Below the pieces are notes generated by a model. The model made no database searches and was not told where the DNA came from. It saw only the letters and a program-made list of their open reading frames with translations. A DNA stretch of 63,714 bases from Kiritimatiellia bacterium. GTDB lineage: Bacteria; Verrucomicrobiota; Kiritimatiellia; CAIQIC01; Lenti-01. The position numbers and the translations under genes are program-made. The stretch lies in the NCBI GenBank assembly GCA_017527155.1, contig JAFXQI010000029.1, positions 1 to 63,714 of the forward strand. Direction: 5' to 3'. Below, piece by piece: positions 2,697-63,441 of the stretch; positions within the stretch are counted from its first letter, which is position 1; every line of letters starts with the position of its first letter.

Positions 2697-4508
2697 ATGA
2701 ACACCTCCCCCACTACCGCAATCAAGGCCTTCGCCTTCGCCTTGGCCATCCTGCTGGCCCCGGCAATGGTGCTTGGCGATGGCTTCCTCAACGTGGACCT
2801 CAACTATGACTTCGAATCAGGTTCGGAAACGGAGGTGTACGTGTGCGGCTGTTTCAACAAATCCGCAACCAACATCACGATTCCCGAGGTAGTCGTGTAT
2901 GAATATGTAGTGCTGGATGAAGATGGCCAAGGTATTGTCAAGCAGCGCACTTGTCGCGTGACGCGCATCGGGAGGAATGCGTTTTCCGATTGCAACGCCT
3001 TGACGAGCGTGACGATTTCCGCCAGCGTGACAAACATCGGGGAGTATGCGTTTTGCCGTTGCAACGGCCTGACGAACGTGGCGATTCCAGACAGCGTGAC
3101 GAGCATCGGGGAGCATGGGTTTTCCGATTGCAGCGGCCTGACGAGCATGGCGATTCCCGCCAGCGTGACAAACATCGGGGAGTATGCGTTTTGCCGTTGC
3201 AGCGGCCTGACGAACGCAACGATTGGCAACGGCGTGACGCGCATCGGGAGGGATGCGTTTTCCGGTTGCAGCGGCTTGACGAGCGTGACTATTGGCAACA
3301 ACGTGACGAGTATCGGGTACGAGGCGTTTTCCGGTTGCAGCAGCTTGACGAGTGTGACGATTCCCGACAGTGTGACGAGCATCTGGAACGCTGCGTTTAA
3401 AGGTTGCAGCGGCCTGACGAGCGTGACGATTCTGGGCAATGTCACGAATGATACTTCCCCATTCATCAACTGCACGAATCTCACGACACTCGTCTTAGGG
3501 GAGGAGATGACAAAAGTCGGAAACCGCATGTTTTATGCTTGCAGCGGTCTGATGAGCGTGACGATTCCCAACAACGTGACAAGCATCGGGAACTCAGCCT
3601 TCGAGAATTGCTCAAATCTTACGAGCATGGCCATTGGCAACGGCGTGACAAACATCGGGACACACGTGTTTTCCGGGTGCAACTCACTGGAATCCTTTTC
3701 GGTGGCAAGCGACAACCCGGCCTTCAAGTCGGTTGATGGGCTTCTCCTGACGAAAGATGGGAAAACATTGTTGTACGGCGTAAACGGTGATGTCGTAATC
3801 CCTGATGGAGTCACGGAATTGAGCACCTATGCCTTCAACAACTACGGCGAACTGACGAGTATCGTCATCCCCAACAGCGTGATTCGTTTCCCAACGGAGG
3901 CTTTCGATGGTTGCGACAAGCTCTGGATATCCTGGTACCGCACCTTGGCCAACCTCGCGGCGGGTAGCGGGGCATCCGGCGGCTTGCCAGGCGACGCCGG
4001 CAAAACCGTGTCGTTCACCGTCACGAACGTCATCGTCCACTACGTGACGCAGAGCCTCCCGGGCGACGCGGTGACGCCGTCCACGAACTCGACGGGCATC
4101 GTGAACATCGTGGCCGAAGTGACGGCCGGCAAGGCGATTGCCATATCGGAGGACTGGGCGAAGCAGTATCCGGGCTTCGCGGAACAATACGGCGCCGACT
4201 TCTCCGCCGCGCTGACGATGGAGAACGGCAAGCGCGACGGCACCGGCGCCCCGATGTACGTCTGGCAGGATTACGTGGCGGGGACGGACCCGACGGATCC
4301 GGCGTCGGTGTTCACCGCGTCGGTCACCTTCGACGCCGAAACCGGCGAACCCGTCATCAGCTGGTCCCCGGAACTCTCCCCGGAGGAAGCGGCCAAGCGG
4401 CTCTACACCGTCTCCGGCAAGGTCAAGATGACCGACCCCGACTGGCTCCCGCTCGACGGCAACGCCTCCGACTTCAACTTCTACCGCGTCACCGTCGAAA
4501 TGAAGTGA
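2697..4508 (+). CDS. Secreted BspA-type leucine-rich repeat protein
   Basis: This 603-residue protein begins with a signal peptide (AFAFALAILLAPAMVLG, cleavage near 28). From about residue 80 to 400 it carries BspA/LRR_5 repeats with the recurring phrases SVTIPDSVTSIG and AFSGCSGLT. A non-repeat C-terminal part of about 170 residues includes YVAGTDPTDPASVF, a motif often seen near the end of secreted PVC proteins. The repeats are nearly identical at DNA level, so copy number may vary between strains. AAAAGGAG lies 8 bases before the ATG. The family is exported and often surface exposed; the ligand is unknown. Confidence 0.88.
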   Translation: MNTSPTTAIKAFAFALAILLAPAMVLGDGFLNVDLNYDFESGSETEVYVCGCFNKSATNITIPEVVVYEYVVLDEDGQGIVKQRTCRVTRIGRNAFSDCNALTSVTISASVTNIGEYAFCRCNGLTNVAIPDSVTSIGEHGFSDCSGLTSMAIPASVTNIGEYAFCRCSGLTNATIGNGVTRIGRDAFSGCSGLTSVTIGNNVTSIGYEAFSGCSSLTSVTIPDSVTSIWNAAFKGCSGLTSVTILGNVTNDTSPFINCTNLTTLVLGEEMTKVGNRMFYACSGLMSVTIPNNVTSIGNSAFENCSNLTSMAIGNGVTNIGTHVFSGCNSLESFSVASDNPAFKSVDGLLLTKDGKTLLYGVNGDVVIPDGVTELSTYAFNNYGELTSIVIPNSVIRFPTEAFDGCDKLWISWYRTLANLAAGSGASGGLPGDAGKTVSFTVTNVIVHYVTQSLPGDAVTPSTNSTGIVNIVAEVTAGKAIAISEDWAKQYPGFAEQYGADFSAALTMENGKRDGTGAPMYVWQDYVAGTDPTDPASVFTASVTFDAETGEPVISWSPELSPEEAAKRLYTVSGKVKMTDPDWLPLDGNASDFNFYRVTVEMK

Positions 4509-4869
4509 CGGGGGGAGGCCGCGGTTTTCCGAGCGGTTTCCTCTGTTTTCCGTCCGGGCCTGCGGCGGCAAACACGGAGGGGACGGAGGAAGGAGGCACG
4601 GAGGTGTTTTTGGGGGAGTTTGCGGGAGGAACATTCTCGCTCCGCAAACGCCCCACAAACGCGTCCCGGGGGCGCACGGGGGGGGAGGGAAGAGTGGCTT
4701 CTGGTTCTGCGAAGCTCCCCCAGTGGGTTTCCACTTCTCTCCCGGCCGCATTCCAAGCGTCCGGCTCGCCGGGACGGCTCGCCCCACCATGGGCCGCTCG
4801 GGGGAGGGCAGGCCGACCGACCGCCATTCCGTTTCGCCGGGGGGGCGGAGGGGGGCGTGAGATTATGGA

Positions 4870-5325
4870 AAACATTGGTTCTTCGGGGATTTTAGTGGAT
4901 TGCGTCGATGGGGGGGCCGATGGGGCCGTATTCAAGGCATGGGGTACGCGCAAGCATTCGCCCCCCTCCGAGAGGGGGGTGCCGCCCGGTGGAAGGCTCG
5001 GCAATGGGATTGTGCCTTCGGAGCAAATGGAAAGGGCGGCGGGGGGAGTACTGCGGGTGGCTGTCGATGCAGGCGTCCACTTGGTCCATCCGCAAAATTC
5101 TTGATTCGTTCGTTCCCGGTGCGGAGTCGCGCTTGCCGCGACGGCCAAGCGCAGTACTCCCCCCGTCGCGGCCCCTGCCGTTTCCCTTCTTCCATGCATG
5201 GACATCCCATTCATGGCCGCGCCACCCCCCTCTCGGAGGGGGGCGGATCCTGACACCCTCCTTGTTCCTTGCATTCGCGGAATTCGGGAGACGGTTCCAC
5301 TAAAGTCTCCGAAGAACCAAAACAT
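4870..5325. repeat. Long inverted repeat, hairpin-forming
   Basis: The left arm (about 4870-4990) and right arm (about 5210-5325) are imperfect reverse complements. Both contain TTGGTTCTTCGG, TTTTAGTGGA (changed on one side) and CCCCCCTCCGAGAGGGGGG. A second internal pair, GGGGGGAGTACTGCG, lies at 5043 and, inverted, near 5152. Part of the same arm, interrupted by a mobile element, is found at 2256-2490. The element has no gene and looks like a non-autonomous mobile or foldback element. Confidence 0.65.
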
Positions 5326-5641: not shown

Positions 5642-5698
5642 AATTTTTTTCCAATCATTGGAAAACCGGCGAAAATATTTTCCAATCGTTGGAAAACT
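5642..5698. repeat. Two 19-bp palindromes
   Basis: TTTTCCAATCATTGGAAAA and TTTTCCAATCGTTGGAAAA stand side by side with a GC-rich spacer. The centre base differs between units, but the arms are constant. Confidence 0.8.
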
Positions 5699-6326: not shown

Positions 6327-6475
6327 ATTATGGGGATTATGGGGACAATGGGGATTATGGGGACAGACCCCAACTTTCCCAATCATTGGAAAAATTTTTT
6401 CCAATCATTGGAAAAATATGGAAAGTTTTTTCCAATCGTTGGAAAATCTGAGAAAAAAGGGGACAGACCCCGAAT
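6327..6475. repeat. Short tandem repeat, 19-bp palindromes and GGGGACAGACCCC motif
   Basis: The segment begins with a tandem GGGGATTATGGGGACAATGG text. It then holds three palindromes of the TTTTCCAATCATTGGAAAA type between two copies of GGGGACAGACCCC (near 6359 and 6459). That motif is itself palindromic and is a common dispersed repeat in several bacterial phyla, as far as I recall. All of it lies between the lipoprotein gene and the next membrane protein gene. Confidence 0.75.
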
Positions 6476-8093: not shown

Positions 8094-8132
8094 CGGCGCG
8101 GCTCCAGCGGCCCGCCCGCGGGCGGCGGGAAG

Positions 8133-8286
8133 TTTTCCAACCATTGGAAAAAAAGTTTCCAATCATTGGAAAATTTGGGCTGTTTTTTCCAACCATTGGA
8201 AAAATTTTTTCCAATCATTGGAAAAATCCGGAAAATTTTTTCCAATCGTTGGAAAACCGGCGAAAAATTTTTCCAATCGTTGGAAA
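8133..8286. repeat. Array of six 19-bp palindromes
   Basis: Six units of TTTTCCAAY(C/R)TTGGAAAA type stand in tandem with short, irregular, mostly A/T or GGCG spacers. Four centres are CAT-type and the last two CGT-type. The array occupies almost the whole spacer before mreC and ends 21 bases before its GTG. Spacers are far too short and irregular for CRISPR. Confidence 0.85.
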
Positions 8287-8307
8287 CTTCTTGCAGGAGG
8301 GTGTGCG

Positions 8308-18967: not shown

Positions 18968-19175
18968 GGCGGTTTCCTTTCGTTGTGAAATCCGGCGCGC
19001 ATCCTAGCACGGGCCGCCGGGAAAGTAAAACGTTTTACGCGAGGGGGTGGGATTTCCGGAAAACGACTTGCGACTCGCGACGGGCGACTTGGGGATGGGG
19101 AACGCGCGAGATTATGGAAAAAGATGCCAAAACACCCCGTTTTCGCGCATTTCGAGCGGTGGGCTTCCGACGACC
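18968..19175. other. Spacer with decayed leader element
   Basis: GAGATTATGGAAAAAGATGC starts at 19108. It matches tag type B of the dispersed leader elements (GAGATTACGGAAAA) with one change, and is followed by AAAACACCCCGTTTTCGC. The CCTCCC-ATG end is not recognisable. The element points into the 3' end of the next minus-strand gene. Confidence 0.5.
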
Positions 19176-22176: not shown

Positions 22177-22231
22177 AGATTACGGAAAAAGCTTGACCTC
22201 CCACCTCCCATCCCCCATCCTCTCCCCCATG
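22177..22231 (+). promoter_or_regulatory. Dispersed leader element, tag B, in front of family protein 1
   Basis: AGATTACGGAAAAA (tag B) begins the element, a C/A/T-rich stretch follows, and it ends in CATCCTCTCCCCCATGAAA, which includes the gene start. No Shine-Dalgarno sequence lies before that ATG; the CCTC run resembles the anti-SD instead. The tag recurs in inverted form inside the gene at 22984-22998. Confidence 0.65.
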
Positions 22232-23152
22232 AAAAAGCACCTCCTCAACGTCCTCGACAACACCGGCAAGGTCTTCCACGGCCTCCGCGGCATGAACCGC
22301 AATCTCGTCGGCCCCGGCGCCGACCGCTTCCTCCCCATCCTGCTCGCGCTGACGCCGGCGATCTTCGCCGCCTTTGCGGTCACCGAGGCCGGGGCCGCCT
22401 TCTTCGGCGAACTCGCCCGCCGCCGGCGCCTCCGCGAAAAGCTCCCGGATTCCCCGTCCTTGCGCGGCGCCCCGACCCCGGCCGAACTGGAAGACGACTG
22501 GATGGCCGACCCGCGGACCCTCACCACGCGCCTGCGCCTGGGTTCGCGCCTGGCGGACCTCGATCCGACCATCGACCACACGGTCGTGCGCAAGAAAAAC
22601 CGCCACGGCAAACTCGTCATCCGCTCCCGCAAGGGCGGCCTGAAGGGATGGCTTTCCGACCGCCGGGTCCGCATCCCCTACTCCACCGCCATGCGCTACA
22701 AGAAGCTCGCGCAACGATTGCGCGCCGTGCTGGAGCTGGATGACCGCCTCCCGCTGGAATGGGTCCTGTCCGGCGTGCCGGCGGACCGACCGCTTCCCGC
22801 CGAGCTGGATGGCCCCTGCGCGGCGGCGACTCGGCGGCTGGCGAAGATCCTGCGGGAGAACCGGTCGCTGGCGGGGCTGGCGCGGTACGTGGAAGCGAAG
22901 CTGGGGATCGTGCGGGTCCTGGCGGTGCGGAAGGCGCAGGTGCGGCGGCGGGCGGGGGGAGCGAAATCGCGGAAAAGAGGCGGTTTTTCCGTAATCTCAT
23001 GTGGACGGTCGGTCTCGCTGGCACCGGAACGGGTGGAGGGGACGAAGGCGGCGCTGGCGGAGCTGCTGGCGGAGGAAAACCTGTCGGGGAGGGCATTGGA
23101 ATTGCAATCGAAGGCGAAACGCTGGCTGGAGTCGGTGGCGGACGGGGCTTGA
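22229..23152 (+). CDS. Family protein 1 with leader tag: membrane-anchored, DNA-binding-like
   Basis: This 307-residue protein has a hydrophobic segment at about 34-58. The conserved core at 84-181 contains RLRLGSRLADLDP and the helix pair GLKGWL...YSTAMRYKKLAQRLR, which looks like a DUF3102-type DNA-binding helical unit. A variable C-terminal part follows. Family protein 2 at 47.27 kb shares the core at roughly half identity, including DPRTL, GSRLADL, GLKGW, YSTAM.YKKLA and PLEW. Codons for FSVIS (253-257) are an inverted copy of the tag in its own leader. Function is unknown; a role tied to the dispersed tags is inference. Confidence 0.75.
   Translation: MKKHLLNVLDNTGKVFHGLRGMNRNLVGPGADRFLPILLALTPAIFAAFAVTEAGAAFFGELARRRRLREKLPDSPSLRGAPTPAELEDDWMADPRTLTTRLRLGSRLADLDPTIDHTVVRKKNRHGKLVIRSRKGGLKGWLSDRRVRIPYSTAMRYKKLAQRLRAVLELDDRLPLEWVLSGVPADRPLPAELDGPCAAATRRLAKILRENRSLAGLARYVEAKLGIVRVLAVRKAQVRRRAGGAKSRKRGGFSVISCGRSVSLAPERVEGTKAALAELLAEENLSGRALELQSKAKRWLESVADGA
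22984..22998 (-). repeat. Inverted copy of tag B inside family gene 1
   Basis: TTTTTCCGTAATCTC is the exact reverse complement of GAGATTACGGAAAAA; 14 bases match the leader tag at 22177-22190 perfectly. It encodes FSVIS in frame, about 50 codons before the stop. Confidence 0.8.
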
Positions 23153-23229: not shown

Positions 23230-23383
23230 GCCGGGCGCCGTCCCGGCCGGCCGCCGCGCATTGGTCCCCATGCGGCGCGCCGCGGCAAAACCCCGCCAGG
23301 GCCGGAAGGCAGCAACGGTATGCCGTATGGCGCGGGCGCGAGGGTGTCGCCGGTGCGCGACGGCCGGTCGGACGGCGCAAGGC
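23230..23383 (+). ncRNA. ffs: Signal recognition particle RNA, small bacterial type
   Basis: The universally conserved tip motif is present as CAGGGCCGGAAGGCAGCAAC at about 23297-23316. GGGCGCCGTCCCGGCCGGCC on the left pairs with GGCCGGTCGGACGGCGC on the right to form the long closing stem. The size (about 150 bases), the fold and the position just before dnaX all agree. The exact ends are uncertain by several bases. It scaffolds Ffh for membrane-protein targeting. Confidence 0.87.
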
Positions 23384-26331: not shown

Positions 26332-27117
26332 TCACGCCGGCTCCGGCGCCTCCAGAATCTCCAGCGCCGCATTCCTCGCCCGCGGCGCCACGTCCGCATG
26401 CCGTTCGAGCCACAGCCCGACCGCCTGCCGGAGCTCCCGGTATACGGCGGCTGGCAACGCCGGCGGGATGCTCCGCCCCCCGGTGATGGCCGCCAGGATG
26501 GCCAACGTCGACGCCCCCAACGGCAGGAGCTCCCCCCTTCCCTCCCCGCCCGCCGCGCATCCCGGACACAGCAGGCGACCTCCCCGCGCATCCAGGAAAG
26601 CCGCCGGCCCGCTCCCCGGCCCTCCCGGAAGCAGAAGCGGGGCGCGGCAGCGCGCGCACCGCGTCCAGTCCGGGGCGAGCCCGAGCGTCCGCAGCAGCCG
26701 CAGCTCGAAGCGCGGCAGGAACGCCGGCCCCGGCGTGCGGTCCGCCAGCGCGTCGAGCGTGTCGTCGAGCAGCCGGTACAGGGCAGGATCCGCCGGTCCC
26801 TCCGGCAGGATGCGGTCGAACAGCGACGCCGCGTACGAGGCCGCCGCGCACGCCCGCCAGTCGCGGCGCAGCGCCGGCCGCGGCGCGAGCGGGGTGCATT
26901 CCTTGAGCAGATGCAGATGGCGCGGCGCCCGGGCGTAGTACAGCAGTTCGCACGTGTAGAAGAGGTCGTACTGCCCCAGGAACGGACTGTCCGGCCGCTG
27001 GCTCCCCTTCGCCGCCGTCGCCAGCTTGCCGCCGTCCGCCGTCAGCCAGGTCACGATCTGCGACGTGTTCGTCAGCGGCACCGTCCGCAGGACGATTCCC
27101 TGGTCCTTGACGATCAT
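26332..27117 (-). CDS. recO: DNA repair protein RecO
   Basis: This 261-residue protein has an N-terminal OB fold (VKDQGIVLRTVPLTNTSQIV), a helical middle and a C-terminal zinc-finger-like part with C..C (CARCRAPLLL) and CPGC. It fits RecO in length and layout. It binds single-stranded DNA and RecR in gap repair. The ATG overlaps the stop of ybeY (ATGA), so the two are translationally coupled. Confidence 0.88.
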   Translation of the reverse strand: MIVKDQGIVLRTVPLTNTSQIVTWLTADGGKLATAAKGSQRPDSPFLGQYDLFYTCELLYYARAPRHLHLLKECTPLAPRPALRRDWRACAAASYAASLFDRILPEGPADPALYRLLDDTLDALADRTPGPAFLPRFELRLLRTLGLAPDWTRCARCRAPLLLPGGPGSGPAAFLDARGGRLLCPGCAAGGEGRGELLPLGASTLAILAAITGGRSIPPALPAAVYRELRQAVGLWLERHADVAPRARNAALEILEAPEPA

Positions 27118-27578
27118 GGCCGCAGGATGCCGCCCCACCCGGACGCCCCTTCCGCGTCCAGCCACTGCGTTTCGCGGCGGCGCATGGAGCGGCGGGCGGC
27201 GGGCGTGTCGTCGTCGTGGCCCGCGAGATGGTCGAGGCCGTGCGCGAGGTACAGCGCAAGCTCCCGCGCGGCCCCGCCGGGACGCCCCGCGCCTTCCTGG
27301 AGGGCGCGTTCGGCGTTGATGACCAGCTCCGCCGTTGCGGGCTGGATGCCGGGGATGGCGGCGTAGGCGAGCGATATCACGTCGGTCTGCCGCCGGATGC
27401 CGAACACCCGCTCCTTGCAGCCGGGCATGTCGCCGTCGCCGACGAGCAGGATGGACAACTCGGCGTACGGCTCCGCGCCGTCGCCGAACGCCCGCACGGC
27501 GAGCCGGGCGGCCAGGGCGGAGAGGGCGGAGCGGTCGATGGCGACCGCGCTGCGCCGTTGCTGGATGTGGATGCGCAT
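27114..27578 (-). CDS. ybeY: Endoribonuclease YbeY, 16S rRNA maturation factor
   Basis: This 154-residue protein has ELSILLVGDGDM, TDVISLAY and the metal motif HGLDHLAGHDD (113-123). In the family the third metal ligand is normally His, as in HGxLHLxGYDH. Here that position is Asp123 and the preceding Tyr position is His121, so the site may use His121 or a carboxylate. It processes the 3' end of 16S rRNA. A leader element (27645-27704) lies about 70 bases upstream and points at the gene. Confidence 0.88.
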   Translation of the reverse strand: MRIHIQQRRSAVAIDRSALSALAARLAVRAFGDGAEPYAELSILLVGDGDMPGCKERVFGIRRQTDVISLAYAAIPGIQPATAELVINAERALQEGAGRPGGAARELALYLAHGLDHLAGHDDDTPAARRSMRRRETQWLDAEGASGWGGILRP

Positions 27579-27644: not shown

Positions 27645-27704
27645 TTCATGGGGCGGAGGACGACGGAAACAAACGGAAAACGTCCATGTTTTCCGTAATC
27701 TCGC
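27645..27704 (-). promoter_or_regulatory. Dispersed leader element, tag B, in front of ybeY
   Basis: On the minus strand it reads GAGATTACGGAAAACATGG, then a TTTTCC hairpin, then CGTCCTCCGCCCCATGAAA. The ATG at 27650 opens a 12-codon frame that ends 33 bases before the ybeY start. Tag and ATG end match the other copies. Confidence 0.65.
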
Positions 27705-32426: not shown

Positions 32427-32489
32427 TCGCGATATCAAGGAAAACACGCGGATTTCCAAGCGTTTTGCCCATATCCTCCCACCATGGAA
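32427..32489 (+). promoter_or_regulatory. Dispersed leader element, tag C
   Basis: TTCGCGATATCAAGG (tag C), then AAAACACGCGG...CGTTTT, then ATATCCTCCCACCATGGAAA. The ATG at 32484 opens a 12-codon frame ending at 32522, inside the 3' end of the convergent permease gene. No gene follows on the same strand, so this copy is unlikely to drive anything. Confidence 0.6.
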
Positions 32490-34656: not shown

Positions 34657-34679
34657 GCCGCCCTCCTTCCGCCGTCGAA

Positions 34680-34742
34680 GTTTTCCAACCATTGGAAAAA
34701 AAGTTTCCAACCATTGGAAAAAATTTTTCCAATCATTGGAAA
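34680..34742. repeat. Array of three 19-bp palindromes before tadA
   Basis: The units are TTTTCCAACCATTGGAAAA, TTTCCAACCATTGGAAAA and TTTTCCAATCATTGGAAAA. They stand in the spacer between the tadA start and the 3' end of the next gene. An AT-rich stretch with ATCGAA/TTCGAT words lies beside them (34757-34800). Confidence 0.85.
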
Positions 34743-34911
34743 ACTTTTCCGCCGCCCGTCCCACTCGATTCCATCGAAAGAATCGATTTTTTCGAAACAA
34801 TCGAAATTCATCCTTGTCCCCCTTTGTCCTGTTTGTCTTCCAAAAAATCGTTTCCTTCAAAAGTTGTGCCGAGTTGTTTTTCCAAGTTGTCAAAATTGTC
34901 GTTCTGGATTT

Positions 34912-38460: not shown

Positions 38461-38868
38461 CCGCCCCCGTGGCAGGACCTTGCACAAACGCCGGCGGGAG
38501 CGCTCGGCTGCGCACCCGCCGTCGCCAGGCTCGGCTGCGTAGCGACGGCGCCCCCGCCGTCGGCAGGCGCCTGGGATGCCGAAGTCAAGTGCCCCCCCCG
38601 GCAAGGCAGAGGGTGGGGGGGAGAACACCCGCCTCGCCAGCGGCAGGAATCGCCAGTCGTTCATGGGAGGGAGGATGGGGAAAAACAGGGGAAAACTTCA
38701 AGGATTTTCCTGTTTCCAAAAGAGATGGCGAGGCGCGCATCTCCGGCACGGCCCCACTCCTCCGCTCCCGTTGCCGGGACCTTGCGCAAACGACGGCGCC
38801 CCCCGCCATCGCGCCCCACGGGAGCGCTCGGTTGCGTAGCGACGGCGCCCCCGCCGTCGGGTGGCGGA
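38461..38868. repeat. Two direct repeats of about 100 bp (38461-38571 and 38764-38868)
   Basis: Both units share GGACCTTGCRCAAACG, GGGAGCGCTCGG and GCGTAGCGACGGCGCCCCCG. They bracket a leader element. The spacer as a whole (38352-38930) lies between two minus-strand genes, so it is upstream of grpE and downstream of the hybrid kinase. No gene is apparent. Confidence 0.7.
38660..38722 (-). promoter_or_regulatory. Dispersed leader element, tag A
   Basis: On the minus strand: CTCTTTTGGAAACAGG (tag A), AAAATCCTTGAAG, TTTTCCCC..., then CATCCTCCCTCCCATGAAC. The ATG at 38664 opens an 85-codon frame that crosses the direct repeat, without recognisable protein features. grpE is the next gene on this strand. 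Confidence 0.65.
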
Positions 38869-43367: not shown

Positions 43368-43429
43368 CTTTTGGCAACAGGAAAATCCCCTTGTTTTCAC
43401 CGTTTTCCACCCCTTTTCCCTCCCATGGA
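43368..43429 (+). promoter_or_regulatory. Dispersed leader element, tag A, in front of truB
   Basis: CGCTTTTGGCAACAGG (tag A), then AAAATCCCCTTG, GTTTTCCACC, and TTTTCCCTCCCATGGAC. The ATG at 43425 is in frame with truB and could add 23 residues to it; the truB-like part starts at 43494. Confidence 0.6.
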
Positions 43430-47207: not shown

Positions 47208-47268
47208 CTCGCGATATCAAGGAAAATTCTTGCCATTCCCCCAATTTTCATCCATCATCCCCCCCATG
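47208..47268 (+). promoter_or_regulatory. Dispersed leader element, tag C, in front of family protein 2
   Basis: CTCGCGATATCAAGG (tag C), then AAAATTCTTGCCATTCCCC, AATTTTCATCC, and ATCATCCCCCCCATGAAC with the gene start at 47266. No Shine-Dalgarno is present. An exact inverted copy of the 15-base tag lies inside the gene at 48059-48073. Confidence 0.7.
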
Positions 47269-48249
47269 AACAAATCTCCCATCTTCCCTCGCGGCTATCT
47301 CAAGGCATTGGCCAACGACTGTTTCGGCCCCCATCCCGGCCCCGTCTGCGGAGGGTCTTACGCCACCCTGGCGGAGGCCTGCTTCGGACTCGCCCTCTTC
47401 GGCGGGAGCCTTGCCGCCCATCTCCTCTGGTACGGCGGCAAAACCCTCCTCTCCCGGATTCTCCGCCACGTCTCGCCGCCCGAGCCGCTTCCACCGGCCG
47501 CCCCCCAGGCCCCCGTCTCCCTCCGCGGCGTCCCGGCGCCAGAAGACATCGAAGACGTCTGGGACCTGGACCCGCGCACCCTCTGCGGTCGCCTCCGCAT
47601 CGGCTCGCGCCTGGCCGACCTGGAGCCGACGCTGGACTCGCGTTTCGTCTTCAAGAAGGCCCGAAACGGCTCCCGCCGCATCGTCGCCCGGCAACCCGGC
47701 CTCAAGGGATGGATGAAGGAACACGTCCCCTCCGTCAAATACTCCACCGCCATGCACTACAAGAAACTGGCCACGCGCCTCCGCCAGCTCGTCGGCCTCG
47801 ATCCACGCATCCCGTTGGAGTGGCTCCTCCCCGACAACGAAGAGTCCCTGTCCGCCCTCGCTCCCGCCGACCGCCGGGGGGCCGCCGCCGCCCGGAGCAA
47901 GCTATCCCGCCTGCTCGCCGAGGCCCCCCGGTACACCCATCTCGTGCGGGCGGTCGAATCCAAGCTCGGCATCATGCGGATGGTAACGATCCGTCGCATC
48001 CAGCCGCTCAGGCCCGGTCGCGGAAAGCGCCGGAAGGCGGTGGATTCCGCGAAGAATCCCTTGATATCGCGAGCATCCCGTTCCGGCTTCGCTGCGACAA
48101 CGGACGAGATGCGGACGAAGGCCTTCTGGGATGCCGTCCGGAAGATACTGGGCGAGCGGAATCCCGACCGGGAAACCCGGCAACTGCAATCCGACATCCG
48201 CGCGTGGCTGAACGCGCCCTTGCAGGCCCGTCAGAACCGGCGGCGGTAG
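47266..48249 (+). CDS. Family protein 2 with leader tag
   Basis: This 327-residue protein has a hydrophobic segment at about 36-56 (EACFGLALFGGSLAAHLLWY). The conserved core at 91-188 contains DPRTLCGRLRIGSRLADLEP, then GLKGWMKEHVPSVKYSTAMH and YKKLATRLRQLVGLDPRIPL. The C-terminal part is unlike protein 1 in most places, but both end in a helix with LQS..R.WL. Residues 264-270 (NPLISRA) are encoded by the inverted tag C. Its function is unknown; the helix pair in the core suggests nucleic-acid binding. Confidence 0.75.
   Translation: MNKSPIFPRGYLKALANDCFGPHPGPVCGGSYATLAEACFGLALFGGSLAAHLLWYGGKTLLSRILRHVSPPEPLPPAAPQAPVSLRGVPAPEDIEDVWDLDPRTLCGRLRIGSRLADLEPTLDSRFVFKKARNGSRRIVARQPGLKGWMKEHVPSVKYSTAMHYKKLATRLRQLVGLDPRIPLEWLLPDNEESLSALAPADRRGAAAARSKLSRLLAEAPRYTHLVRAVESKLGIMRMVTIRRIQPLRPGRGKRRKAVDSAKNPLISRASRSGFAATTDEMRTKAFWDAVRKILGERNPDRETRQLQSDIRAWLNAPLQARQNRRR
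48059..48073 (-). repeat. Inverted copy of tag C inside family gene 2
   Basis: CCTTGATATCGCGAG is the perfect reverse complement of the leader tag CTCGCGATATCAAGG at 47208-47222. The adjacent ATTCTT is also shared. Confidence 0.85.
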
Positions 48250-56680: not shown

Positions 56681-56742
56681 CTTTTGGAAACAGGAAAAAT
56701 CCTGATATTCCACGCGTTTTCCGTCATCCTTCCCTCCATGAA
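56681..56742 (+). promoter_or_regulatory. Dispersed leader element, tag A, upstream of a small secreted protein
   Basis: CTTTTGGAAACAGG (tag A), AAAAATCCTGATATTCC, CGTTTTCC, then TCATCCTTCCCTCCATGAAC. The ATG at 56738 opens a 28-codon frame that stops at 56824, before the gene at 56890. Confidence 0.65.
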
Positions 56743-60404: not shown

Positions 60405-60467
60405 TTTTCATGGGGGGCAGGATGGGGGAAAACAGGGAAAAATGTCCGTGTTTTCCGTAATCTCAAG
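60405..60467 (-). promoter_or_regulatory. Dispersed leader element, tag B
   Basis: On the minus strand: GAGATTACGGAAAACACGG (tag B), ATTTTTCCCTG, TTTTCCCCC, ATCCTGCCCCCCATGAAA. The ATG at 60411 opens a 30-codon frame without recognisable features. The next gene on this strand is tRNA-Leu. Confidence 0.65.
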
Positions 60468-63386: not shown

Positions 63387-63441
63387 GGGATGGAGAAAGG
63401 GTGGAAAACAGCGAAAAACCGACATGTTTCCCGTAATCTCA
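63382..63441 (-). promoter_or_regulatory. Dispersed leader element, tag B, in front of the sensor kinase
   Basis: On the minus strand: GAGATTACGGGAAACATG (tag B), TCGGTTTTTCGCTG, TTTTCCACCC, TTTCTCCATCCCATGAAC. It points to the kinase gene 83 bases downstream. Confidence 0.65.

Follow-up and report, generated by a model that had tools for sequence, protein, structure and literature searches.

The leader of a gene from an uncultured Kiritimatiellae relative carries a 14-nt tag whose exact reverse complement lies within the coding sequence of the same gene, and this arrangement recurs, with a changed tag sequence, in two subfamilies of a large paralogous protein family. In our preferred explanation, to which we give an even chance of being correct, the leader tag is a promoter operator and the internal copy an intragenic auxiliary operator, the two being matched sites for a class-specific DNA-binding factor that provides autoregulation, probably via looping. 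The window referred to below is the whole stretch of DNA analysed, 63,714 nucleotides in length.

An inverted copy of the leader tag lies within family gene 1

The leader tag AGATTACGGAAAAA at 22177-22190 on the + strand has its exact reverse complement at 22984-22997, within the + strand gene at 22229-23152, where the copy encodes F-S-V-I-S. A direct sequence check established that both copies reported in the initial annotation are real, although the end given there for the internal copy (22998) was one base too far; the inverted match is 14 nt long. The codons used for FSVIS include the rare TTT and GTA, and on the antisense strand T-tracts follow ~10 and ~20 bp beyond the tag, a layout shared with the solo elements described below. 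An Rfam search gave no match at the site, the matches in the window being tRNAs and the SRP RNA only. The locus contains the following features.

22177-22190, + strand: leader tag of class I, AGATTACGGAAAAA, immediately 5′ of the −35 box
22193-22198, + strand: putative −35 box TTGACC, with a 17 bp spacer, assigned by the family leader pattern
22216-22221, + strand: putative −10 box CATCCT, separated from the ATG by 7 nt; predicted leaderless, Shine-Dalgarno absent
22229-23152, + strand: family gene 1, 307 aa, basic, with an N-terminal hydrophobic segment
22962-22997, − strand: internal inverted site made up of T-tracts and the tag at 22984-22997

A chance origin of the pair, already thought unlikely in the initial annotation, was rejected on expected counts, shuffles and a survey that made no use of the tag. 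Seven copies of the tag at ≤2 mismatches were found in the window where 0.03 were expected. When the leader was shuffled, its longest inverted match was usually 7-8 nt, and the maximum in 5000 shuffles was 14. In the tag-blind test, the 90-nt leader of each gene was compared with the reverse complement of that same gene. Among all called genes of the window, the two highest scores were those of family gene 1 (14) and a paralog at 47266-48249 (15), and among 352 genes from fetched genome stretches only 4 reached ≥14, all of them members of the same family. Direct-orientation matches between leader and gene in the same comparison showed no like excess beyond GC-rich runs. The earlier view that the two copies belong together was upheld. 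The paralog has the same layout, built from a different tag.

47211-47224, + strand: class VI leader tag GCGATATCAAGGAA of family gene 2
47230-47258, + strand: putative promoter TTGCCA-N17-CATCAT, 7 nt before the ATG of family gene 2
47266-48249, + strand: family gene 2, class VI, 327 aa
48057-48070, − strand: internal inverted class VI tag (GCGATATCAAGGGA), 174 bp from the stop, with rare codons TTG and ATA

Tag classes coincide with protein clades and share one promoter geometry

The family comprises at least 61 paralogs in its own 3.23 Mb genome. A family search gave 49 matches in a sister species (G001, the rumen metagenome genome RUG11196), 10 distant ones from G003, which belongs to a third genus, and no match in any other relative searched. 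Many family genes form ortholog pairs between the two sister species. Searches of Pfam, PHROGs and PDB with the family protein found no relative. A hydrophobic N-terminal segment near residue 32 (KD19 > 1.6) is present in 68 of 77 members, and the proteins are possibly membrane-anchored. A conserved block around YSTLMRYKKLA looks like a helix-turn-helix, which is an impression; structure prediction from the two window proteins gave a pLDDT of 41 and was useless as a model.

Each paralog carries a class-specific tag at the same place upstream of a predicted leaderless σ70-type promoter, and four family members match none of the classes I-VII. The class tags are as follows.

Class I: GAGATTACGGAAAA, with a GATTCCAG subgroup
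Class II: TTTGGGAACACGAAA
Class III: TTTGCAATCACGTGAAA
Class IV: TTTGAGATTATTTCATT
Class V: TTTGGCACCACGGTTTT
Class VI: GCGATATCAAGGAAAA
Class VII: TTTTGCAAACAGGAAAAA

These classes, defined from leader DNA, coincide exactly with the protein clades: seven changes, the minimum possible, account for their distribution. Such agreement would follow if every paralog recognised a site of its own.

The promoter assignment is predicted from the leader pattern. TTGNN-N15-19-[CT]ANN[CA]T occurs in 58 of 61 family leaders, 6-10 nt ahead of the ATG, and the tag immediately precedes its −35 box; in 54 of these 58, the spacer is 17 bp long. The pattern occurred in 0.9% of shuffled leaders and 6.8% of those of other genes. 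None of the 61 family leaders has a Shine-Dalgarno sequence, compared with 37% of genes. Because it directly abuts the −35 box, the tag would be in a position for an activator or repressor to contact RNA polymerase, and because it lies upstream of the predicted promoter, it would be outside the transcript of that promoter.

Tags are dispersed as solo elements on a promoter-like scaffold

The tag is not private to family gene 1. Genome-wide, there are 78 exact copies of GATTAYGGAAAA and 145 copies of GAGATTAYGGAAAAC at ≤2 mismatches, with none for reversed-pattern controls, and 57 exact class I copies occur in the sister species. Nearly all copies in the genome are intergenic and stand on a promoter-like scaffold of ~60 nt that starts with TTTTGAGATTAYGGAAAAC, continues with a T- or A-tract ~10 bp on and a second T-tract 10 bp further, and ends with CATCCT followed by ATGAAC or ATGAAA at +51/52. 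The A/T-tracts are phased at ~10.5 bp. According to gene calls seeded with GC-by-codon-position (coding fraction 0.82), 78 of 84 class I copies fall between genes, even though coding sequence makes up ~82% of the DNA. Family genes contain the other six, each in antisense orientation, and the same is true of the two class VI copies at the sampled loci that lie within genes. The gene downstream of a class I copy mostly runs in the same direction and typically lies 110-190 nt away.

Other tags are dispersed as well: 132 copies of class VI (≤1 mismatch), 54 of the II/VII type and 20 of class III, with 0 for controls. These solos use the same scaffold, with the ATG fixed at +55 to +57 in nearly all of them, so that the distance from tag to ATG is constant in solos of classes I, VI, II and III. 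The window contains nine solos.

4859-4873, + strand: solo class I tag, scaffold broken by a ~441 bp insertion
19108-19122, + strand: solo class I tag lacking the ATG end
27688-27702, − strand: solo class I element with tag, T-tracts, −10-like box and ATGAA; the gene at 27114-27578 starts 124 nt downstream of it
32429-32442, + strand: solo class VI element, ATG at +55
38706-38720, − strand: solo class II/VII-type element
43370-43384, + strand: solo class II/VII-type element (TTTGGCAACAGGAAA), ATG at +55
56683-56697, + strand: solo class II/VII-type element
60450-60464, − strand: solo class I element
63426-63440, − strand: solo class I element (GAGATTACGGGAAAC)

The mini-ORFs that begin at the solo ATG were rejected as conserved genes: the second codon is AAC or AAA in 53 of 63, yet frame and stops look random. 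In nine orthologous class I solos of G000 and G001, the spacer diverges by 6.8% and third codon positions by 3.3%; the stretch from the ATG to the next gene changes more slowly, at 2.2%. Four tandem units of ~284 bp, each beginning with a class I solo, occur at G000:C60:15794-16653 (L050). A second solo form, without the ATG and followed by a GC hairpin, was seen at L126 and L130 in the own genome and at L214 and L225 in a genome of another genus (G002); its near-identity between genera suggests either transfer or mis-binning. The insertion that splits the class I solo at 4859 lies at 4873-5325 and is missing from the sister species. Since TTGGTTCTTCGG and CCGAAGAACCAA, at its two ends, form a pair of inverted repeats and a copy of AAAACAT flanks it on either side, it looks like a small transposable element.

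The internal copy is a trait of two subfamilies

An own-class inverted internal copy was present in class I in 14 of 14 full members and in class VI in 28 of 28 sampled members, in identical orientation in every sampled member and ortholog. It lies at about +740 to +783 in class I and at about +780 to +814 in class VI, where it is always 174 bp from the stop. Comparison of family members showed leader tags without any internal copy in classes II-V and VII. The homolog check proposed in the initial annotation, in which each relative would have both a leader tag and a matching inverted copy near the 3′ end, therefore came out as predicted for classes I and VI and failed for the remaining five. 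The internal copy may have arisen once and been lost once, given that classes VI and I flank the deepest fork of the midpoint-rooted tree.

Leader and internal copy changed together between the two subfamilies. Class I leaders matched class I internal regions at 12.3 of 14 positions and class VI internal regions at 10.5, whereas class VI leaders scored 12.7 against class VI and 10.6 against class I. When leaders were permuted among the class I and VI genes in 20000 trials, the permuted mean was 491 and the maximum 517, compared with an observed value of 537. Within class I, own leader/internal pairs also exceeded permuted ones (p = 0.009, relatedness not corrected), as exemplified by C21 and C60, which have GATTCCAG at both sites. 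Permutation within class VI gave no significant fine-scale covariation (p = 0.10).

Codon usage points to selection on the DNA of the internal copy. In class I, all 14 phenylalanine codons there are TTT (4.6% of F codons genome-wide) and all 10 valine codons are GTA (2.4%); in class VI, TTG (3.8% genome-wide) and ATA (1.5%) are each used in 18 of 18 cases. In both classes, the antisense strand also has T-tracts at the spacing of the solo scaffold. Rare codons in every member examined, together with these T-tracts, indicate that the internal copy is selected as a DNA site and is, on this sequence evidence, neither a promoter nor a protein motif alone. An antisense promoter was rejected as an explanation because, although the tag and T-tracts are there, the −10 box and an ATG at the scaffold distance are both missing. 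Classes I and VI have a comparable S-[VL]-I-S motif in common.

The initial annotation had also suggested that the two copies are terminal inverted repeats of a small mobile unit. This idea is contradicted by the coding homology within classes I and VI, which passes the internal copy and extends 150-174 bp beyond it to the stop, the copy itself being in frame. Terminal repeats of an insertion sequence or MITE were rejected on the same ground, as homology does not end at the repeats.

Discussion

In the operator reading, the leader tag would be a promoter operator in the position of an activator or repressor, immediately upstream of the −35 box in a leaderless σ70-type promoter, and the internal copy would be an auxiliary operator ~800 bp away in the 3′ coding region, in opposite orientation. 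The family products would read the tags of their own class, so that each gene would control itself; the promoter and intragenic sites would cooperate through DNA looping over the ~800 bp, and solos upstream of other genes would constitute the regulon of their class. Two binding sites had been one of three suggestions for the pair, and it is the best supported of them: the tag is 5′ of the −35 box in nearly all family leaders, and the copies covary between subfamilies. In two tag classes, the same site is found at the promoter and inside coding DNA, and the internal site bears the marks of DNA-level selection.

Several observations qualify this reading. Binding of the products to the tags is a prediction, made for proteins with neither a Pfam nor a PDB match and a model of low pLDDT. 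Many paralogs per tag class would be unusual for a specific autoregulator and count against one. Classes II-V and VII have leader tags (II/VII and III also solos) without an internal copy, so the internal copy is not essential. In G002 (65% complete), 30 class-I-like tags were found and no family gene was detectable, which means that something else can maintain a class-I-like tag. Many of the G002 tags (L039, L198-L226) are tandem direct repeats ~21 bp apart, and several lie near AAA_14/DUF4143 ATPase genes.

A more far-reaching version, which we offer tentatively and would sooner doubt than accept, is a hitherto unreported multi-class addressing system in which at least 61 possibly membrane-anchored proteins are matched to class-specific tags of 14-16 bp, protein, promoter tag and intragenic tag having diversified together. 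If this is true, each class tag marks dozens to more than 100 promoters, and in two classes the gene of the regulator contains a further, inverted copy.

Operators within genes and repeats matched to a class are both known types of element. The lac O2 and gal OI sites belong to autoregulated promoters with an intragenic auxiliary operator; as proposed for the present family, a second copy of the promoter operator stands in coding DNA, up to hundreds of bp away and capable of looping. The family differs in that the internal site is inverted and lies towards the 3′ end of the gene that encodes the putative regulator itself, that it overrides codon usage and survives subfamily divergence with a changed sequence, and that the proteins are without known relatives. 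ECF-type and other autoregulated regulator families have class-specific promoters, and the likeness lies in paralogous regulators that each have their own promoter signature. Unlike in those families, the core promoter here appears to be σ70-like and leaderless, and specificity would reside in the upstream tag rather than in the −35 and −10 boxes. Our literature search did not find tag, promoter and intragenic inverted copy maintained together across a radiating protein family, and a search on the tag and solo elements found nothing. The family would be a case of binding-site selection that overrides codon choice in a gene while the site sequence changed between subfamilies. It points, in a little-studied phylum, to several tag classes that operate side by side as a network across the genome, and to a natural code that links protein and site. 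It also calls for caution, as such short repeats can pass for mobile-element ends when they are really promoter parts.

In REPtrons, built from REP sequences and RAYT transposases, a gene lies between two inverted class-specific repeats that are also dispersed intergenically, and gene and repeat coevolve (PMC2817692). The family gene and its inverted tags could by analogy be a mobile or repeat-spreading unit, or a former one, with the hundreds of solos as non-autonomous elements, each class amplified by the cognate protein. Class-matched dispersed repeats together with a gene between two inverted copies resemble the RAYT/REP layout (PMC2817692). Exact class VI tags also differ in number between the sister species (93 versus 21; 187 versus 107 at ≤3 mismatches), and solo spacers diverge faster than third codon positions (6.8% versus 3.3%). 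The inverted pair is, however, confined to classes I and VI and has its 3′ copy within the reading frame, with 150-174 bp left to the stop; the tags have neither a palindrome nor a GT(A/G)G head. The HUH pattern of Y1 transposases was found in only 1 of 77 members, no His is invariant and no transposase domain was matched in Pfam. Mobility would leave unexplained why the repeats are locked to the −35 box, the −10 box and the start codon; many family genes pair as orthologs between species, and a filled/empty site pair was not found. We consider a REPtron-like origin unlikely.

Chromosome-organising sites of a nucleoid or membrane-tethering system, with the pair in family genes anchoring a short loop, would also fit the hundreds of intergenic sites scattered over the genome, the ~10.5 bp phasing of the A/T-tracts and the hydrophobic N-terminal segment of 68 of 77 proteins. 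The rigid spacing to promoter and start codon, together with class tags in the family's own leaders, points instead to transcription control and makes this explanation improbable.

Recombination that inverts the bracketed promoter and gene body is very improbable. Two inverted copies ~800 bp apart would permit it, and several synteny breaks between species lie near solo tags in a sample biased towards tags, but only one orientation was seen in all sampled genes of both classes and inversion would sever the C-terminus. In such comparisons (L027:2464 with L168; L019 with L164 and L115; L121 with L182), from loci picked around tags, a flanking gene is shared until the solo tag, after which the sequences diverge; at L027/L168, the sister species carry solos of different classes.

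Long-range pairing of the leader with the 3′ end of the mRNA, the third suggestion of the initial annotation, gains from the complementarity of the copies and their partial covariation within class I. It has little credibility, because in 58 of 61 leaders the tag is upstream of the −35 box; if the predicted leaderless promoter is right, the tag precedes the transcription start and is outside the mRNA. That the internal copy is a mere conserved protein motif resembling the tag is scarcely tenable, since a shared S-[VL]-I-S-like motif accounts for neither the invariant rare codons nor the T-tracts outside it.

Other features of the window

An SRP RNA gene lies at 23259-23358, between family gene 1 and dnaX. 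Dispersed palindromic repeats TTTTCCAATCATTGGAAAA, often in tandem, occur at 5652-5696, 6371-6446, 8129-8287 and 34677-34743. Tandem repeats of 69 nt (units of 23 residues) are present inside a gene at 2887-3681 and probably encode leucine-rich repeats.
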